The translations under genes and the position numbers were made by a program. 64,000 nucleotides of DNA from Thysanoteuthis rhombus (lineage: Eukaryota > Mollusca > Cephalopoda > Oegopsida > Thysanoteuthidae), in contig OY735233.1 in assembly GCA_963457665.1 (NCBI GenBank), positions 24,664,928-24,728,927 of the forward strand. Direction: 5' to 3'. Below the pieces are notes generated by a model. That model did no database searches, was not told the origin of the DNA, and saw only the letters and a program-made list of their open reading frames with translations. Shown piece by piece: positions 2,264-61,063 of the stretch. How positions within the stretch are numbered: the first letter of the stretch is position 1; each line of letters starts with the position of its first letter.

Positions 2264-2322
<59 letters not shown>
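2264..2322. repeat. (TA)n microsatellite
   Basis: Nearly pure TA dinucleotide run of about 58 bp, abutting the hammerhead-bearing fragment that follows. A second short TA run lies at 2408-2434 on the other side of that fragment. Confidence 0.95.
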
Positions 2323-2326
<4 letters not shown>

Positions 2327-2403
2327 GTGTCATCCACAGACAGCTGTTTCGTTGTAGTACAACTCTTCCGTGTGGCTATAGACTTTCCATCATCCCATCC
2401 AGT

Positions 2404-3915: not shown

Positions 3916-4208
3916 GAGGGAAAAAAGCCGATACGGTATTTCAATGCACGACTAATGCATATCCTCGGGGAAATGGATTGATCTGTTCTGTTACGATTGA
4001 TTCTGTGCATTGAAATACTATATCGTGTTTTTGTTTTTTACTACATTTATTCCAACAAAATCAATCTTAAAACTCAGATTTTTGCAATATTAAGTAGTCG
4101 AGCACTCTAAGTACTGATTTGGGGAAAAAAGTATCACTACCGAAATGCTATGTAACTGTTCACCCATGGAAACAAACACTTCCTAGATTTAGCGGTTACT
4201 TATTCTAA

Positions 4209-4257: not shown

Positions 4258-4421
4258 ATGCTCTTCCAACTCTGGAATGAAGTACTTTGGTAGATAGGGA
4301 ATAGAGCATAAGTAGATATATCGCTTAATTCAGTCCTACTGGCCGTCCAGTTCTGTATAGGACAGGGGTAAAACGTGTGCCTCTGGGTCTGAAGCGAATG
4401 GTTTTACCCTACCTGGCATCG
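4257..4421 (+). mobile_element. Retrozyme-like element, body fragment without hammerhead
   Basis: Matches the internal body of the hammerhead family, from gatgctcttccaactctgga to ctgggtctgaagcg and the decayed B-box region. It stops just before the position where the hammerhead begins in complete units. It runs straight into an RTE copy at 4425. Confidence 0.75.
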
Positions 4422-19065: not shown

Positions 19066-19445
19066 CAAGAGACAAACCCACAAACTGAGAAGCATGCAAC
19101 GTACGCATGAGAGAATCATGCTCAACCCCACATGGAGAGACAGCACAATGTATCAGGAAGAAAATGGGGGTCAGAGAAATCATTAGAATCCATTATAAAA
19201 CTCAAATGGCAATGGGCAGGCCATGTTGCGAGAATGAAAGACAACCAATGGACATCACAACTCACAACATGGATCCCTACAGACTGCATGCAAAACTAAG
19301 ACCGACAAAAGACAAGATGGACAGATGAACTAGACAAATCCAGAAAATACTGGCTCTGCGATGCCCATAATAGAGAAATGTGGTGGATCCTGGGGAAGGT
19401 CTATGTCCAATGACGGACGTTAAAACACTGATGATGATACATATA
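19066..19445 (+). pseudogene. RTE-type LINE 3' end copy
   Basis: Begins at aagagacaaacccacaaact directly after the TA run and ends with gttaaaacactgatgatgat. The stop codon merges into the tail. It carries a frameshift within the TAQYIRKK block. A retrozyme-like fragment follows within a few bases of the tail. Confidence 0.8.
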
Positions 19446-19448
19446 TCA

Positions 19449-19555
19449 TTGTATCATCCACAGACAGCTGTTTCGTTGTATTACAACTCTTCAGTGTGGC
19501 TATAGACAATCCGTTATCCCATCCAGTATCACGAGGTAGGATTGAAACCTGGCGA
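19449..19555 (-). mobile_element. Retrozyme-like element fragment with hammerhead
   Basis: The minus strand runs from the B-box-like ggtttcaatcctacctcgtg through ggatgggat to the hammerhead. It sits between two RTE copies, immediately after the ATG-repeat tail of the first. The body upstream of the B-box region is missing. Confidence 0.8.
19453..19507 (-). ncRNA. Type I hammerhead ribozyme (copy b, core intact)
   Basis: On the minus strand all core elements are present in order: CCACA (stem I), CTGAAGA, GTTGT-AAT-ACAAC (stem II), GAAA, a stem III made from ACAG/CTGT, the GTC cleavage triplet, and TGTGG (stem I). The distal part of stem I is GTC against GAT. Cleavage is predicted right after GTC. 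Confidence 0.85.
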
Positions 19556-21586: not shown

Positions 21587-21605
21587 CTGGAAGGGATAAT
21601 GGATA

Positions 21606-21660
21606 GTCTATAGCCACACTGAAGAGTTGTAATACAACAAAACAGCTATCTGTGGATGAC
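21606..21660 (+). ncRNA. Degenerate type I hammerhead ribozyme (copy c)
   Basis: CCACA, CTGAAGA and stem II GTTGT-AAT-ACAAC are intact. G12 of the GAAA segment is A, and the cleavage triplet is ATC instead of GTC, which also weakens stem III. This copy is predicted inactive. Confidence 0.8.
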
Positions 21661-21943
21661 ACGATTATTTAATCATTATTATTATGATTAACGCTCCCTT
21701 ATTTAGGATTGAAGACTCTTTAAGTAAGGTAACTCGTTCATTATAAGCTATTATGGCAATGCTCTTCTAACTTTGGAATGGAGCACTCTGATGGATGGGG
21801 AATCGTGTGTAAGTTAATATATCGCTTAAATTCAGCCTTACAGACCGTCCAGATCGGCGTAGGGCAGGGGTCAGAATGTCAGCCTCTGGGTCTGAAGCGG
21901 AGGTTTCGATCCTACCTCGTGGTACTGGATGGAATATTGGATA

Positions 21944-21998
21944 GTTTATAGCCACACTGAAGAGTTGTGATACAACGAAACAGCTGTCTGTGGATGAC
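21944..21998 (+). ncRNA. Type I hammerhead ribozyme (copy d, core intact)
   Basis: CCACA, CTGAAGA, stem II GTTGT-GAT-ACAAC, GAAA, CAGCTGTC and TGTGG are all present. Distal stem I is GTT against GAC. The predicted cleavage site is after position 21988. Confidence 0.85.
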
Positions 21999-22049
21999 AC
22001 AATTATTTAATTATAATATACATATATACACACACATATATAGAGAGAG

Positions 22050-38263: not shown

Positions 38264-38318
<55 letters not shown>
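38264..38318. repeat. (TA)n microsatellite
   Basis: TA run abutting the retrozyme-like unit. Confidence 0.95.
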
Positions 38319-38320
<2 letters not shown>

Positions 38321-38365
38321 GAAGGTTTCGATCCTACCACTTAGCGCTGGATGGGATATTGGGTA

Positions 38366-38420
38366 GTCTATAGCCACACTGAAGAGTTGTTATACAACGA
38401 AATAGCTGTCTGTGGATGAC
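38366..38420 (+). ncRNA. Type I hammerhead ribozyme (copy e, core intact)
   Basis: CCACA, CTGAAGA, stem II GTTGT-TAT-ACAAC, GAAA, TAGCTGTC and TGTGG, with distal stem I GTC/GAC. Stem III contains T where other copies have C, giving a G-U wobble, so pairing is preserved. Cleavage is predicted after 38410. Confidence 0.88.
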
Positions 38421-38689
38421 TTAATTATCATCATCATAATTAACGATCACTTCTTTAGGGTTGCGTACTCTTCAAGTAGGGAAACTCGTCCATTATAAGC
38501 TACAATAAAAATGCTCTTCCAACTCTGGAATGGGGCACTCCGGTGGATAGGGAATTGTGCGTAAGTAAATATATCACTAAAATTCGGCTTTACTGACCGT
38601 CCTGATCGGTGTAGGGCAGGGGCAAAATGCCAGCCTCTTGAAGTGAAAGTTTCGATCCTACCTCGTGGTACTGGATGGGATATTGGATA

Positions 38690-38744
38690 GTCTATAGCCA
38701 CACTGATGAGTTGTTATACAACGAAACAGCTGTCTGTGGATGAC
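38690..38744 (+). ncRNA. Type I hammerhead ribozyme (copy f, core intact)
   Basis: This copy has the commonest natural core, CTGATGA, together with stem I CCACA/TGTGG, stem II GTTGT-TAT-ACAAC, GAAA, CAGCTGTC and distal stem I GTC/GAC. Cleavage is predicted after 38734. Confidence 0.9.
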
Positions 38745-38852
38745 TTAATTACATATATATAAACTTCTATGTACAGTCAATCAATGTAAACAGTGAAATT
38801 TTTTTTTAGGGCAAAGTACGGTTTAATTTTGTATATAACTGACCATCACAGT

Positions 38853-39453: not shown

Positions 39454-39569
39454 GATTTAGTCTACAGACCGGAATTTGGTCTGCAGACCGGATTTAGCCT
39501 ACAGACCGGATTTAGCCAGCGGACCGGATTTGGCCTGCAGAGCAGATTTCGCCACAGATCGGATTAGCC
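39454..39569 (+). repeat. 18-bp minisatellite, about six units
   Basis: Units such as gatttagcctacagaccg, gatttagccagcggaccg and gatttggcctgcagagca follow one another with 17-19 bp spacing. The repeat is GC-richer than its surroundings and is not in an open frame of note. Confidence 0.85.
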
Positions 39570-42604: not shown

Positions 42605-43146
42605 GATTTCACACCAGTTCCCTGGTGGTTACCGCTGAAGGCCAGTAAGTCTCCTCAGGTCTTCATCCTTCATCTCATCTCATCCCTCCCTCATCAATTA
42701 CATCATAGATATTATATTTGTAGCACTTTCCTCGGTATTCGTGCGGTTCCTAGCAGTGCTGGGGTCTGTACAGTTTCAATCTTTCCTTTATCCTGAGTTC
42801 CTCCAATCTCGCCCTCAGTGTCTTTGGGACAGTTCCTAGTGCACCTATTATTACTGGTACGACCCTGACTTTCGTATTCAACACCTTCTTCAGTTTTCTT
42901 GCCATATCCTCGTATCTTCTCCAGTTTTTGGCTTTCTCTTCTCTTTACTCTATGGTCTGCATGTACGGCTACATCTATCATTTGGTAGGTTCTCCTCTTC
43001 GTGTCTACGATTACCAGGTCTGGTATTCTCGCTTGGATGAGATAGTCCGTTTGGATGTCAAAGTCCCAAAGTAATTTGTGGTGTCCGTTCTCCAGGGCTG
43101 TCCACGGTCTGTACTTGTACCACTTTTCCATATGGTTAAATCCCAT
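42605..43146 (-). pseudogene. 5'-truncated copy of the R4/Dong-type LINE
   Basis: Encodes only the last part of the protein seen at 43416-47105. It begins at MGFNHMEKWYKYRP and keeps LLWDFDIQTDYLIQARIPDL and IDVAVHADHRVK. It then runs out of frame across the Lys/Glu-rich stretch before returning to IETVQTPALLGTARIPRKVL. Its 3' UTR holds one copy of the conserved hairpin (42612-42627) and it ends at an ATT run. The 5' truncation falls at another ATT run at 43147. Confidence 0.85.
42612..42627 (-). other. R4-type 3' UTR hairpin, copy C
   Basis: CACCAG, TTCC, CTGGTG: a perfect 6-bp stem with a 4-nt loop, about 8 bp from the (ATT)n end. It matches the hairpins at 43183 and 43298. Confidence 0.75.
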
Positions 43147-43415: not shown

Positions 43416-46400
43416 TTATATCTCTAGCACCTTCCTCAGTACCCGTGCAGTTCCCAGTAGTGCTGTGGTCTGTACGGTCTCTATCCTCCCCCTAATCCCG
43501 ATCTCCTCCAGTCTCTCCCTCAGCGTTTTGGGGACAGTTCCTAGTGCTCCCACTATGACCGGTACTACCCTGGTTTTCATGTTCCACATTTTCTTTAACT
43601 CCCTTGCTAGGTCCTGGTATTTTTCCCTTTTTTCAGCCTCCTTCTTTTTTACTCTATGGTCTGCAGGCACAGCCACGTCTACTATTTGGCAGGCCTTCCT
43701 TTTTTTGTCTACTATTACTAAGTCCGGCCTTCTTGCCTGGATGAGGTGGTCAGTTTGGATGTCAAAGTCCCACAGTAGTTTGTGGTTGTCATTCTCCAAA
43801 ACTGCCTCTGGCTTGTGCTGATACCACTTTTCCCCATGGTTGAATCCCATTTGTTTACTTAGTTCCCAGTGTATCATCGTTGCTACTCTATCGTGTCTAT
43901 GCTTATACTCCTTCTGGGCGAGTTGACTACATTCACTAGTTATGTGGTTTACTGTCTCATCTCTTTCACCGCACATGCGGCATTTGCTGTTTGCCTGTGT
44001 TCTGTCGATTTTAGCTTTTATGTAGTTTGTCCTTATGCTTTTGTTTTGGGCTGCCATGATGAGCGATTCTGTTTCTCTCTTAAGGTTTCCCTTTCGTAAC
44101 CACGTCCATGATTTCTCGTCTGCTATATCTTTTATCTGTCTTTTAAACTCGCCGTACAATTTTTTCCCTTCCCACTTTTCTTTTCTAGTTTGCTGTACCG
44201 TTCCATTGCTTTCTACTTTGTTTGTTGCACTATCCCTCGCGCTCTTTATGATTTCTTCACTATTTGTTTGCACATATTTATCTAGGACTACTTTAGCTCT
44301 CTGGACACAATCTTCTATGCTGATGAGCCCCCTACCACCTTCTTTTCTCTTAACGTATAGTCTATCTGTATCATCCCTAGGGTGTAATGCTTTATGCATA
44401 GTCATAAGTTTCCTTGTTCGCCTATCCATTGATTGGAGCTCTTCCTTTGTCCATCCTAGGAATGGTCCTGTATACCTAACTACTGACACAGCCCAGGTGT
44501 TCATTCCTTTTATTAGATTTCTGCTATTTAATTTGGTTTCTAATATTTTCCTTATCCTTCTAAGGTATTCCCTCCTAATTTTCTCCTTCATCTCTTCCCG
44601 TTTTATCGTGTCACATTCAAGGACACCTAGGTACTTGTATCGGTCTTGTGCAGTCAATGCCCTAATCTTGTTGTTGTCCGGAAGTTCAATTCCCTCAGTC
44701 ATTGAAAGCCTTCCTTTGTGCATTACCATGATTGCGCATTTCTCTATCCCAAACTCCATTCCTATGTCCTCACTATATTCCCTTACTTCGTTGAACAGAG
44801 TCTCAAGCTCTCCCCTGTTTTTCGCAAACAATTTAATATCGTCCATGTACATTAAGTGATTGACCTTTCCTTTTGTTTTAGAGAAGTGGTATCCTTTGCT
44901 GTTTTTCAGGATTCTGTTAAGCGGTATCATTGTTAGAACAAATAATAGTGGGGACAACGAGTCCCCTTGGAAGATCCCCCTTTTTATCCCTACCTCGGTT
45001 AGTTTGTCCCCTGCGGCTGTCAAATCTACTTTCCAGTCTTCCATTGAATTACCAATGAATTTAACCACCGGTTCGCTAATTTTGAACATTCTAAGGCATT
45101 CGAGTATCCAGCTATGTGGAATCATATCGTATGCCTTTTTGTAATCTATCCATCCCATTGCGATATTCTTTCTCCTTTTCCTTACTTCTTTTAAGATCAT
45201 CTGGTCTATGTAGAGTAAATCGTTTGCCCCTTTGGTTCCTATCCTACACCCTTTCTGTTCTTCTGGTAGTAGCCCCCTTCTATCCATTGACATGTATATT
45301 CTCTCTGCTATTTGCCCGGTCAGGATTTTCCACATAAGTGGTAGGCAAGTGATTGGTCTATAGTTGCTTGCTATGTTCCCCTTTCCCGGGTCTTTTTGGA
45401 TGAGGGTGGTTCTGCCTTTAGTCATCCATTCTGGTGCTTTGCCTTCATTCAGACAATTTTGGAGTAGGTGAGTGAGTCTGCCGTGTAACGTGGTAAATTT
45501 TTTGAACCAATACCCATGGATCCCGTCGGGACCCGGTGCTTTCCAGTTGGCTACTTTCCTAAGAGTATGTTTCAATGTGGTTTCATTCAGTACTATTGGT
45601 TCTCCCTTGTCTATATCTCCTAGTTCTTTTCTCATGTTTCCTAACCATTGCGGTGTTACGTTATGTCTTTTTGGGTGCCCCCATATGCTATTCCAATAGT
45701 TCTTGGCCTCTGTGGCATCTGGTTTCATGTCCTGCCTTCTTTCCCCATTTAAATCTCGGTAAAACTTTTTCTCATTGTTTTGGAATGTGCGGTTTTGTGT
45801 GTATTGGGCCGTTCTTAGTCTATATCTTTTTAGTCTTGCCTCTTTAGCTAGTCTTTTCTGGTGTAATTCTTCGACTACAGTTGCGATGCCTTTTTGCGTT
45901 ACCTTGTATTTGTTATAAAGTCTTACTCGTGGTCTGTCTGTGTGTGGTGTATTTCTAAGCAGTGCTTCATCTCTCTGTAGTTGGGAGATCTGCCTTTGTA
46001 ACCTTCTCTCCCAGTTGGGTTTCCCTTCCCTATTATTGCTCGGGTTCCTATCTTGTGTTGTAAAGCTTTGTGCTACCATTTTCGCCCCTGCGTAAATTAG
46101 GTTGTTAAGTTCTAGGAGGGTGTTTGTTTCTATGTGCTGTAAGAGGCAGTTGACCTGCTCGGTCACTTCTCCGACTTTCTTTCTGTCTTTGTCTCTTAGG
46201 GAGGGGAGTGTTGTTTTCTCTCCTCGCATGATCTCTTTCAAAGCTTGTATTTTGGTGTTCTCTTCTTCCGTTGGTGCCTCGTCATCACCCTCTGATACAT
46301 AGCTTACTGTGGGGGTCTCATGGGGAGTTATTCTAGTTTTGTTATTGGTACTAATTGTGCTGGGGGGGCATTCTTCAGATGTGTCACCTGAACCTCTCTC

Positions 46401-47105
46401 TACATTAATGCGAATCTCTAGTAGTTCAGTCTCAGACAGCCATTTCTTCTTTTGAATTTGCTTTACTTGGTCAGCAAGGCGTTGGTTCGATACTTCCACA
46501 TCAGATTTTTCCCTCCATATTTGGAGCATACGCTCCCTATAAGATCGCACTGAAGGCTTGCTTTTAAAGTAACAAAACATAACTAGCCTATTCTCCTCCC
46601 TTGTCCATCTCTTTCTCTTGTTTTTTATAGCAGTCACTCCGAGAGGACCGCGCCTTCCCTGGGTGTCGTTAGTGGTATATGAGTCTTGGCCAACAGTAGC
46701 TATGTGACGACTGTGTCCCTCCTGAAGGCCATTAAGGGTACACGAGCCGGAGTTTTGGCCAGCAGTCACAGGATGACGACCGGGTCCCTCCTGGTGGCTA
46801 ACAAGGGAACACCTGCCGGTTACGACACACAGGTCTTGGATCTGTGCCCCGTTTTTTGCGGTAAAATGGTTTGGTTGTACTGTCATGATAGGGGTTTTTG
46901 GTTCTTTGAGGTAGCGCCAGACCTTGGTGGGTTGGTTAAGACCGATGTGGTTCAGAAATAACCGAAGAGCCCCACCAGCTCTTTTTGGTTCTTTTAAGGT
47001 AGCACCAGACCTTGGTGGGTTCGTTGAGGGCAATGAGCTCAGTGGCATTCTCAAAGTTCCACCAGTTCTTACAACCCATGGTACAAACTTACATGGATAG
47101 GCCAT
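43416..47105 (-). CDS. R4/Dong-type LINE polyprotein (reverse transcriptase plus REL endonuclease)
   Basis: An uninterrupted 1229-codon frame. Residues 1 to about 150 are poorly conserved-looking and contain an internal repeat (SGATLKEPK and VWRYLKEPK). A Myb-like DNA-binding segment starts near W167 (KRKRWTREENRLVMF). The reverse transcriptase covers roughly 500-880: AYD motif A with Asp654 (WIDYKKAYD), the GIFQGDSLSPLL motif, then YMDD at 753-756 (Asp755/756) and YLGV. A CCHC knuckle follows at C1042, C1045, H1054 and C1059, with an RHD motif just after. The restriction-like endonuclease has RPD (Asp1128), then Asp1143 in IVDVAVPAD, then a KY pair in EKREKYQDL. It ends ALLGTARVLRKVLEI. The protein would nick a target and prime reverse transcription of its RNA there. 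All catalytic residues are present, so the copy may be active or recently active. The first Met at 47105 is the longest start; Met74 is an alternative. Confidence 0.92.
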   Translation of the reverse strand: MAYPCKFVPWVVRTGGTLRMPLSSLPSTNPPRSGATLKEPKRAGGALRLFLNHIGLNQPTKVWRYLKEPKTPIMTVQPNHFTAKNGAQIQDLCVVTGRCSLVSHQEGPGRHPVTAGQNSGSCTLNGLQEGHSRHIATVGQDSYTTNDTQGRRGPLGVTAIKNKRKRWTREENRLVMFCYFKSKPSVRSYRERMLQIWREKSDVEVSNQRLADQVKQIQKKKWLSETELLEIRINVERGSGDTSEECPPSTISTNNKTRITPHETPTVSYVSEGDDEAPTEEENTKIQALKEIMRGEKTTLPSLRDKDRKKVGEVTEQVNCLLQHIETNTLLELNNLIYAGAKMVAQSFTTQDRNPSNNREGKPNWERRLQRQISQLQRDEALLRNTPHTDRPRVRLYNKYKVTQKGIATVVEELHQKRLAKEARLKRYRLRTAQYTQNRTFQNNEKKFYRDLNGERRQDMKPDATEAKNYWNSIWGHPKRHNVTPQWLGNMRKELGDIDKGEPIVLNETTLKHTLRKVANWKAPGPDGIHGYWFKKFTTLHGRLTHLLQNCLNEGKAPEWMTKGRTTLIQKDPGKGNIASNYRPITCLPLMWKILTGQIAERIYMSMDRRGLLPEEQKGCRIGTKGANDLLYIDQMILKEVRKRRKNIAMGWIDYKKAYDMIPHSWILECLRMFKISEPVVKFIGNSMEDWKVDLTAAGDKLTEVGIKRGIFQGDSLSPLLFVLTMIPLNRILKNSKGYHFSKTKGKVNHLMYMDDIKLFAKNRGELETLFNEVREYSEDIGMEFGIEKCAIMVMHKGRLSMTEGIELPDNNKIRALTAQDRYKYLGVLECDTIKREEMKEKIRREYLRRIRKILETKLNSRNLIKGMNTWAVSVVRYTGPFLGWTKEELQSMDRRTRKLMTMHKALHPRDDTDRLYVKRKEGGRGLISIEDCVQRAKVVLDKYVQTNSEEIIKSARDSATNKVESNGTVQQTRKEKWEGKKLYGEFKRQIKDIADEKSWTWLRKGNLKRETESLIMAAQNKSIRTNYIKAKIDRTQANSKCRMCGERDETVNHITSECSQLAQKEYKHRHDRVATMIHWELSKQMGFNHGEKWYQHKPEAVLENDNHKLLWDFDIQTDHLIQARRPDLVIVDKKRKACQIVDVAVPADHRVKKKEAEKREKYQDLARELKKMWNMKTRVVPVIVGALGTVPKTLRERLEEIGIRGRIETVQTTALLGTARVLRKVLEI
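46893..47024 (-). repeat. Internal direct repeat at the 5' end of the R4-type frame
   Basis: Two copies of a segment containing ttttggttctttgaggtagc and gccagaccttggtgggtt lie about 85 bp apart. They give the duplicated GATLKEPK/WRYLKEPK peptide and suggest that this part is either 5' UTR or a flexible N-terminus. Confidence 0.65.
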
Positions 47106-47584
47106 TCTGCTGCTCAGATATATCTATTTGGTGGTATGACCATCCCCTCCTAAATTCAGGCCTAAAAATTAGCACTAACCTTCGTCTGGGTGAAATTAAC
47201 AACCTTGGGGATCATACGTCTCCCTTAAATCTTGCAATCTGTGTTCTTCCCCCACGGTGGATTTCCCCCTGCTAGCTTATATCTACTGAGGGGTCCTAAC
47301 GGTCAGTGGTGGACAGACTCCATTCATTCATACTCGGGGGAGGGGTAGCTAGGCATTACTTTCCCATAAGACACCTCTCATCTCGGTGGGGGGGGTGGAG
47401 AGTTATTAATTTTAAATTATAAATTATAAATTTAATTCCACTTACCCACGTGCAGCTCCAAGAAACAACAGACCACTCTCTCAACTTTTTTTTTTTTTTG
47501 TCTTTTTCATTAGGTAGAATTTGGCAGTGGGCAATTCATCCAGGTGAAAACTTATCGGAATCGCAAAGAAAACCTTCTCAGAAG
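47106..47584 (-). other. Presumed 5' untranslated region of the R4-type LINE
   Basis: GC-richer than the flanking DNA, with a poly-G tract (about 47388) and no open frame continuing the polyprotein. Two AT-rich stretches follow at 47400-47440. A role as a 5' UTR is inferred from position only. Confidence 0.45.
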
Positions 47585-47921
47585 TAGAAATATCAATATG
47601 TCAAGAATAATCATTCTTAAAGCCTAAAGTAAAATATCTTTTGAACCTTCGAAAATCATCAAAATGTCAAGAATAGTCACTTAAAGCCTAAAGTAAAATA
47701 TCTTTTGAACCTTCGAAAATCATCAAAATATCAAGAATAGTCACTTAAAGCCTAAAGTAAAATATCTTTTGAACCTTCGAAAATCATCAAAATATCAAGA
47801 ATAGTCACTTAAAGCCTAAAGTAAAATATCTTTTGAACCTTCGAAAATCATCAAAATATCAAGAATAGTCACTTAAAGCCTAAAGTAAAATATCTTTTGA
47901 ACCTTCGAAAATCATCACAGG
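47585..47921. repeat. 64-bp tandem array, about five units
   Basis: The word tcttttgaaccttcgaaaat recurs at 47637, 47701, 47765, 47829 and 47893, an exact 64-bp period. The last four units are essentially identical and the first is slightly longer (ataatcattcttaaa). The array lies between the LINE frame and the TTA microsatellite. Confidence 0.95.
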
Positions 47922-51942: not shown

Positions 51943-52047
51943 AGCTTACGACACCTGGTATTCCCTGAGGATCGCTCATCTAGGGGCTGACCAGGTTGGA
52001 CGTTGCTTAACTTGGTGTGCCCCAATGCCATTTGGCCGTATGGGGCT
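51943..52047 (-). pseudogene. 5S rRNA-derived sequence, internally deleted
   Basis: The minus strand reads atacggcca near the 5' end, then cacaccaagttaagcaacgt (the box A region of 5S genes), then cctggtcagcccctagatg, and finally gggaataccaggtgtcgtaa. These match eukaryotic 5S rRNA in order, with about 20 nt missing between the first block and box A and several changes in box C. It is either a 5S pseudogene or the head of a 5S-derived SINE (SINE3-type). No T-run terminator follows. Confidence 0.8.
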
Positions 52048-60735: not shown

Positions 60736-60737
60736 AT

Positions 60738-61063
60738 GGATAGTCTATAGCCACACTGAAGAGTTGTAATACAACGAAACAGCTGTCTGTGAATGACACA
60801 ATTATTTAATTATTATAATCAACGCTCCCATATTCAGGGTTGAACACTCTTTAAGTGAGGTAACTAGTTCATTATAAGCTGATGCAATGCAATGCTCTTC
60901 CAACTTCGGAATAGAGTACTCTTTTGGATGGGGAATATATGCGTGAGTGAATATATTGCTTGAATTCAACTTCACTGACCGTCCAGTTCTGTGTAGGGCA
61001 GAGGTACAATGCCAGCCTCTGGGTCTGAAGCAAAGGTTTAGATCCTACATCCTGGTACAACAA
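60738..61063 (+). mobile_element. Retrozyme-like element with one hammerhead and body
   Basis: Hammerhead g is followed by the complete body (atcaacgctcccatattcag to cagttctgtgtagggcagag). The sequence then ends shortly after the decayed B-box region (gatcctacatcctgg). The second hammerhead is missing, so only one predicted cleavage point remains. Confidence 0.8.
60743..60797 (+). ncRNA. Type I hammerhead ribozyme (copy g, core intact)
   Basis: CCACA, CTGAAGA, GTTGT-AAT-ACAAC, GAAA and CAGCTGTC are all intact. The 3' strand of stem I is TGTGA, which leaves four pairs plus a terminal mismatch. Distal stem I GTC/GAC is kept. Cleavage is predicted after 60787. Confidence 0.85.

Follow-up and report, generated by a model that had tools for sequence, protein, structure and literature searches.

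A dispersed family of retrozyme-like elements with type I hammerhead motifs and a (TA)n context in a decapodiform-cephalopod-like genome

Focal element and its hammerhead motifs

The window (i.e., the whole 64-kb stretch of DNA that was analyzed) contains an element composed of a left repeat, a body, and a right repeat, together with five other pieces of the same family (Table 1). An earlier note had placed two hammerhead motifs in this element; direct reading bore out their sequence and coordinates, and the same reading, combined with a strict descriptor, confirmed that every invariant core nucleotide is kept in both. Each motif has a stem I consisting of CCACA/TGTGG plus GTC/GAC across an internal loop (5 and 2 nt), a stem II (GTTGT/ACAAC) with a 3-nt loop II, and a stem III formed by an A-U pair and a C-G pair (U-G in copy 1) and capped by a palindromic AGCU. 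Core position 7 is A in hammerhead 1 and T in hammerhead 2. With only two pairs and the palindromic AGCU in stem III, a single motif is expected to be weak by itself and to lend itself to dimer formation. The G+C content of the 324-nt unit is 43%, and its longest stop-to-stop frame is 88 aa (minus strand), indicating that the unit is non-coding. The focal copy starts at unit position 235.

Table 1. Family-related features of the window, with positions counted from its first nucleotide
Feature	Position	Strand	Remarks
(AT)n array in the 5' flank	38265..38317	.	Insertion context of the focal copy
Candidate 12-bp target-site duplication ATATATATAAAC, left copy	38309..38320	+	AT-rich, weak alone
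Focal element (left repeat, body, and right repeat; 1.33 units)	38321..38751	+	90% identity to the family majority
Left 107-nt repeat	38321..38427	+	92% identity to the right repeat
Type I hammerhead 1 (CTGAAGA/GAAA/GTC)	38366..38420	+	Predicted cut after 38410; 84.3 bits with a family model built from hammerheads 1 and 2 among others
324-nt unit between the two cut sites (predicted monomer or circle)	38411..38734	+	
Region in which many other copies have their sharp 5' boundary (unit 97 to 104), with the hairpin just inside that boundary	38507..38541	+	
Right 107-nt repeat	38645..38751	+	Direct repeat of the left copy at a spacing of 324
Type I hammerhead 2 (CTGATGA/GAAA/GTC)	38690..38744	+	Predicted cut after 38734; 85.8 bits with the same family model, built from hammerheads 1 and 2 among others
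Candidate 12-bp target-site duplication ATATATATAAAC, right copy	38753..38764	+	AT-rich, weak alone
Short copy in (TA)n with one hammerhead site	2311..2403	-	Site at 2329-2383; one core base changed
Body fragment without hammerhead	4258..4414	+	
Short copy with one hammerhead	19437..19550	-	Hammerhead at 19453-19507
Copy with two hammerhead sites	21587..22005	+	Sites at 21606-21660 (G12 and another base changed) and 21944-21998
Copy with one hammerhead, ending after the body	60737..61058	+	Hammerhead at 60743-60797

In 30 simulations of the window with a first-order Markov model, the strict descriptor returned 0.0 matches per 64 kb; it found 17 motifs across the window and loci L001 to L037, two of which were counted twice because L001 is the focal element's own stretch. 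Among 31 long copies (L001 to L030 and the window copy that starts at 21587), only the focal copy passed the descriptor at both sites.

In a check against the Rfam covariance models, which the earlier note had proposed, both focal motifs scored under the gathering threshold of Hammerhead_3 (25.0 bits and E = 0.0062 for copy 2; 18.1 bits and E = 0.54 for copy 1; gathering, 48.5), while a related and divergent family member whose stem II is GTC/GAC (L045:1493-1547) scored 35.6 bits with Hammerhead_1, above the gathering threshold of 34. This was the only locus to exceed that threshold in a genome search in which 73 of 299,496 first-look candidates were scored. Another locus (L003) scored 25.1 bits with the same model (E = 0.00087; gathering, 34).

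We aligned 76 ribozyme instances (73 distinct) drawn from 83, five having been removed because they are not 55 nt long and two (L007:1492-1546 and L024:1964-2018) because they are largely flanking sequence; the focal element (L001) was excluded. When the hammerhead structure was laid over this alignment, 93.5% of the pair cells were standard, and 8 cells were changed on both sides, compared with 2.5 in shuffles (8 was reached in 1 of 500 shuffles). Stem II supplies three of the five pairs with double changes. A control slid by +1 column had 13 double-changed cells (i.e., more than the real 8), yet pairing is present in only 16.9% of its cells. Conservation along the unit is highest in the ribozyme stretch (0.92 to 0.94 per window of the unit versus 0.88 in the body), within which the catalytic core (0.925) shows no advantage over the remaining ribozyme (0.941). 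For focal copy 2, a fold other than the hammerhead has the lowest predicted energy (-15.5 kcal/mol versus -6.6 kcal/mol for the hammerhead), and the double hammerhead likewise lies above the predicted minimum (-29.1 versus -36.5 kcal/mol); these predicted energies exclude tertiary contacts. A rod-like fold of the 324-nt unit was set aside as support, its structure being not unusual (z = -0.33).

Family size and core losses

The genome searched comprises 2.73 Gb in 514 contigs. An exact 32-nt core with one free base occurs 2,727 times genome-wide, and the first 20 nt of this core, with the free base fixed as A, occur 7,519 times; the reversed control gave 0 in each case. Two neighboring 13-mers occur 13,372 times (control, 257) and 17,475 times (control, 26) and are found jointly at 3,926 places. 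These joint counts give an estimate of about 58,000 ribozyme motifs, a figure that presumes independent losses and that is biased low by unequal ages. DNA searches of the genome returned at least 42 matches (40 of 9,667 candidates scored) and at least 43 matches (40 of 12,806 candidates scored), and one family fragment was present in 100 kb of stretches taken at round-number places. The density of the window (i.e., six family pieces in 64 kb) was rejected as a genome estimate because the window was picked for its copies. There are three exact cores in the window, compared with 0.064 expected from the genome mean, and intact cores on contig C1 seem locally clustered (e.g., several in 0.6 Mb at C1:66.0-66.6 Mb).

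At the first 100 joint 13-mer places listed, GAAA was counted by eye 66 times, AAAA 22 times, and other sequences 12 times. The core is most often lost by a change of G12, which lies in a CG context, to A; G12 is kept in 69% of the long-copy set. Elsewhere in the genome, three same-strand motif pairs at spacings of 289 to 310 bp were seen among the first 100 listed places.

It is extremely improbable that the motifs belong to a decayed satellite, or arose by chance, without any ribozyme history. Such an origin would agree with the scores of both focal motifs below the Rfam gathering thresholds, but it is opposed by the lack of matches in the simulated 64-kb windows, by the 2,727 exact cores set against 0 in the control, by the double changes in stem II, and by the distribution of the family, which occurs as dispersed copies and not as long arrays in the loci read. 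The focal copy is a real, well-preserved member of a large retrozyme family and is ordinary in kind.

Copy ends, (TA)n context, and routes of insertion

Copy layout was read in 40 loci taken from the list of exact cores (the first 20 on C1 and the first 20 on C2) without regard to length. By construction, this sample represents young or well-kept copies, and the search-derived long copies were selected by query match. At 6 of the 40 loci there are at least two ribozyme sites, with L100 having three, in a count in which some stretches were cut 300 nt downstream, and a single family match exceeds 324 nt at 7 of the 40. The arrangement that the earlier note had described, in which ribozymes flank a non-coding body as direct repeats, holds for the focal copy but is not the usual form of the family. 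Copies of the long-copy set span 1.7 to 1.9 units.

The 3' end of the sampled copies is fixed, some 8 to 28 nt past the cut site. Of 34 terminal 3' ends, 30 have (TA)n after them, and (TA)n is found at the 5' flank of 20 of the 40 loci, compared with 135 of 4,940 random windows. Six of the 40 cores (sorted by eye) are internal and run straight into another unit; that these junctions have no TA tail is partly circular, since they were recognized by their direct continuation into the next unit. Of the family's unusual traits, this (TA)n context is the best established.

The 5' ends vary along the unit, with a sharp boundary at unit positions 97 to 104 in 9 of the 40 loci (0.99 expected if ends were uniform), or in 8 of 40 if a copy counted at position 98 (L070), for which an upstream piece is the alternative start, is taken as a longer copy. 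The same boundary is seen in copies of about 0.75 unit and of 1.75 units (L038 to L041 and L043). Six longer copies were read together with flanking sequence, and in five of them the left end is the boundary near positions 100 to 106; the exception (L042) begins at unit position 17 and ends inside the unit. Such a sharp boundary fits the start of a linear RNA better than a circle, and a hairpin (-11.1 kcal/mol) starts just inside it, so that the boundary agrees better with a 5' end of the RNA than with a polymerase stop. These features favor a linear SINE-like element, in which RNA running from unit position 97 to 104 to past the ribozyme would be retroposed without circles, the hammerhead would only trim or release the RNA, and dimers would be transcripts of dimeric loci.

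Other 5' ends count against a purely linear route. Three of the 40 copies start at the cut site (unit position 1 to 2; L062, L063, and L090), compared with 0.25 expected, or 0.37 for three positions if position 324 is counted too (P = 0.006, post hoc); their 5' ends, and that of L103, were set by eye, masking having shortened them. Another four of the 40 start at unit positions 25 to 32 (i.e., after about one lap; 0.99 expected), and these ends are fuzzy and have AT-rich flanks. Among the 19 of 57 junction loci that were readable, the cut-site start was not clearly enriched, being found in L113 and perhaps in L112, with other starts scattered within the ribozyme. As a post hoc observation, the cut-site starts are suggestive of a footprint of cleavage, and they provide the most valuable lead of the analysis. 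A cluster of 5' ends at positions 235 to 275 in the first 30 loci was discounted because those loci were chosen by query match.

The repeats of individual elements point in both directions. In 36 elements (L042 was excluded from this test), an element's own left and right repeats share 26 rare variants, more than re-paired repeats do (p = 0.00035). Own repeats are also closer to each other than re-paired ones (p = 0.003 in 10 long elements; p = 0.001 in 36 elements at unit positions 263 to 340), although in a narrower 64-nt stretch (positions 277 to 340), own pairs were not clearly closer (0.127 versus 0.130; p = 0.17). Closer own repeats that share rare variants are expected if both derive from one template unit. 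At the same time, the mean distance between repeats at the same position is smaller than that between repeats at different positions (p = 0.003, 0.03, and 0.02 in three comparisons; long-set distances of 0.161 left-left, 0.194 right-right, and 0.182 cross). This same-position resemblance counts against pure homogenization through circles, which would not produce it, and it adds to the case for linear retroposition made by the boundary and its hairpin. The shared rare variants and the locus with three ribozyme sites argue in the opposite direction, as do the starts at the cut site and after about one lap. We regard the linear route as a serious possibility, albeit a somewhat doubtful one.

Judged from its sequence, the focal copy is very probably a SINE-like retroelement that is non-autonomous and non-coding and belongs with the metazoan retrozymes. 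In the life cycle that we propose for such an element, transcripts would fold into hammerheads, probably as a dimer through the short palindromic stem III, and would then cut themselves. An RNA ligase may re-close some of the RNA, yielding 324-nt circles. A reverse transcriptase from another element (Penelope-like or LINE) would use a TA-rich target for priming at the AU-rich stretch that follows the ribozyme and would copy less than a lap, a whole lap, or more. The focal copy would then stem either from the copying of about one and a third laps or from a linear two-unit RNA.

A bolder proposal, which we advance tentatively and consider rather unlikely, is that the hammerhead retroelement targets (TA)n for insertion and that its copies keep the cut site as their 5' end, such that germ line cleavage and lap-wise copying of circles could be read from an assembly. 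If this is true, insertions at TA would pile up, and the element would shape the microsatellite landscape of the genome. As to how animal retrozymes re-enter DNA (i.e., from linear or circular RNA, and by which enzyme), a family with so many motifs and with readable 5' and 3' ends makes the route testable from sequence alone, and the copy ends can be compared with the cut site, one lap, and the RNA start.

Regarding possible helper elements, the genome contains GIY-YIG fragments (L035 to L037), which we take to be Penelope-type from their motif. Two of the three have a TA run 0.35 to 0.65 kb downstream, in a genome for which random sequence contains 25 such runs per 100 kb. These fragments would agree with an origin of the family as a non-autonomous derivative of a Penelope-like element whose repeats are pseudo-LTR remnants, as would the proposal of Penelope-like elements as retrozyme helpers in the part of PMC7229834 available to us. 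We consider this origin improbable. Neither the strict descriptor nor a relaxed one, nor the family model, found a hammerhead in L031 to L037, and the unit has no similarity to L035 to L037. The hammerheads of Penelope-like elements are likewise of type I, occur in animal retroelements, and are proposed to act as dimers, but they are described in the accessible part of PMC7761336 as minimal, without helix III or loop contacts, and as lying in an autonomous element; the motifs here have a stem III and a stem I internal loop. A LINE-like open frame of 1,235 aa in the window (43416 to 47123, minus strand) contains a reverse transcriptase and a weak zf-RVT match, and a frame at 42712 to 43146 (minus strand) resembles, by eye, an incomplete copy of the C-terminal portion of the LINE-like frame. 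Neither the Penelope-type fragments nor the LINE-like frame is tied to the retrozyme element.

The candidate target-site duplication of the focal copy (Table 1) is, together with that of L030, a good single case. As a family-wide trait, target-site duplications were rejected: matching of flanks gave a score of at least 10 in 8 of 33 cases, compared with 14% of swapped flanks, which does not clearly exceed chance. An 18-nt tandem repeat (GATTTAGCCTACAGACCG; 6.5 copies) lies at 39454 to 39569, 0.7 kb downstream of the focal element.

Relation to known hammerhead elements and other features

The classification as retrozyme-like made in the earlier note stands, given the type I hammerheads, the 324-nt unit with a G+C content of 43% and no long open reading frame, the dispersed copies, and the fixed 3' and varied 5' ends. 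Metazoan retrozymes, according to Cervera and de la Pena (2020) in the portion of PMC7229834 that we consulted, have a type I hammerhead and a non-coding, 170- to 400-nt RNA of low G+C content, with no LTR signals described. Their copies number in the tens of thousands (126,247 motifs in the axolotl) and form tandem repeats that range from dimers to large multimers, in hosts that include mussel and axolotl. Retrozymes seem to be without promoters, according to the portion of PMC7761336 consulted. So far as these partial sources go, the present family resembles the metazoan non-LTR retrozymes in its complete type I core, a unit within 150 to 450 bp, a G+C content of <50%, its non-coding nature, and its many dispersed copies, and it resembles the axolotl retrozyme in its short stem III with a palindromic loop (PMC7229834). 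Unlike the tandem retrozymes of that source, most sampled copies here are single-ribozyme and scattered, mostly in (TA)n, and there is a sharp 5' boundary; no mention of TA targeting was found in the consulted part of its description of retrozymes.

Newt satellite 2 and the axolotl elements HHR_Amex1 and HHR_Amex2, as presented in the same part of PMC7229834, likewise have a unit of about 330 to 350 bp and a weak, dimer-favoring stem III. Host and unit sequence differ, and stem III here has two pairs and a four-base loop, like Amex2. The schistosome W-elements also consist of short hammerhead repeats with signs of mobility but are satellite-like; the likeness is drawn from their description in the accessible part of PMC8490949. 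Three other classes were rejected: a plant LTR retrozyme, which has type III hammerheads in LTRs and 600- to 800-nt circles, compared with type I hammerheads, 107-nt repeats, and a 324-nt unit here; a Penelope-like element itself (reverse transcriptase and GIY-YIG), as the focal element has no open frame above 88 aa; and a tRNA-derived SINE, as the best A/B-box pair at a spacing of 20 to 65 was matched by 47 to 49% of 300 shuffles. Rfam scans gave no tRNA match.

The earlier note had considered the family possibly undescribed. As far as the literature was searched, with incomplete coverage, the family is new in a decapodiform-cephalopod-like genome, and no paper joining a hammerhead ribozyme with a cephalopod was found; the kind itself has already been described, including in mussel (PMC7229834, in part). 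The present data extend the retrozyme kind to such a genome and tie it to TA microsatellites.

That the host is an animal, as the earlier note had assumed, is supported by 52 genome matches to the molluscan hemocyanin domain PF14830. The best match of the hemocyanin unit tested was PDB 6r83, presumably cuttlefish hemocyanin, at two neighboring domains (708.6 and 661.1 bits). A doubled hemocyanin d unit is a mark of squids and cuttlefishes, so the host is likely, though not certainly, a decapodiform cephalopod. Nine hemocyanin-domain matches of equal score lie about 2.18 kb apart at C25:56607734-56625492 and may represent near-identical functional units arranged in tandem. Within the window, a 5S rRNA-like sequence with a shortened middle (51943 to 52043, minus strand; 40.5 bits versus a gathering threshold of 38) is possibly a 5S-derived SINE or a pseudogene, and a 64-bp tandem repeat (5.1 copies; 97% matches) is located at 47588 to 47917.
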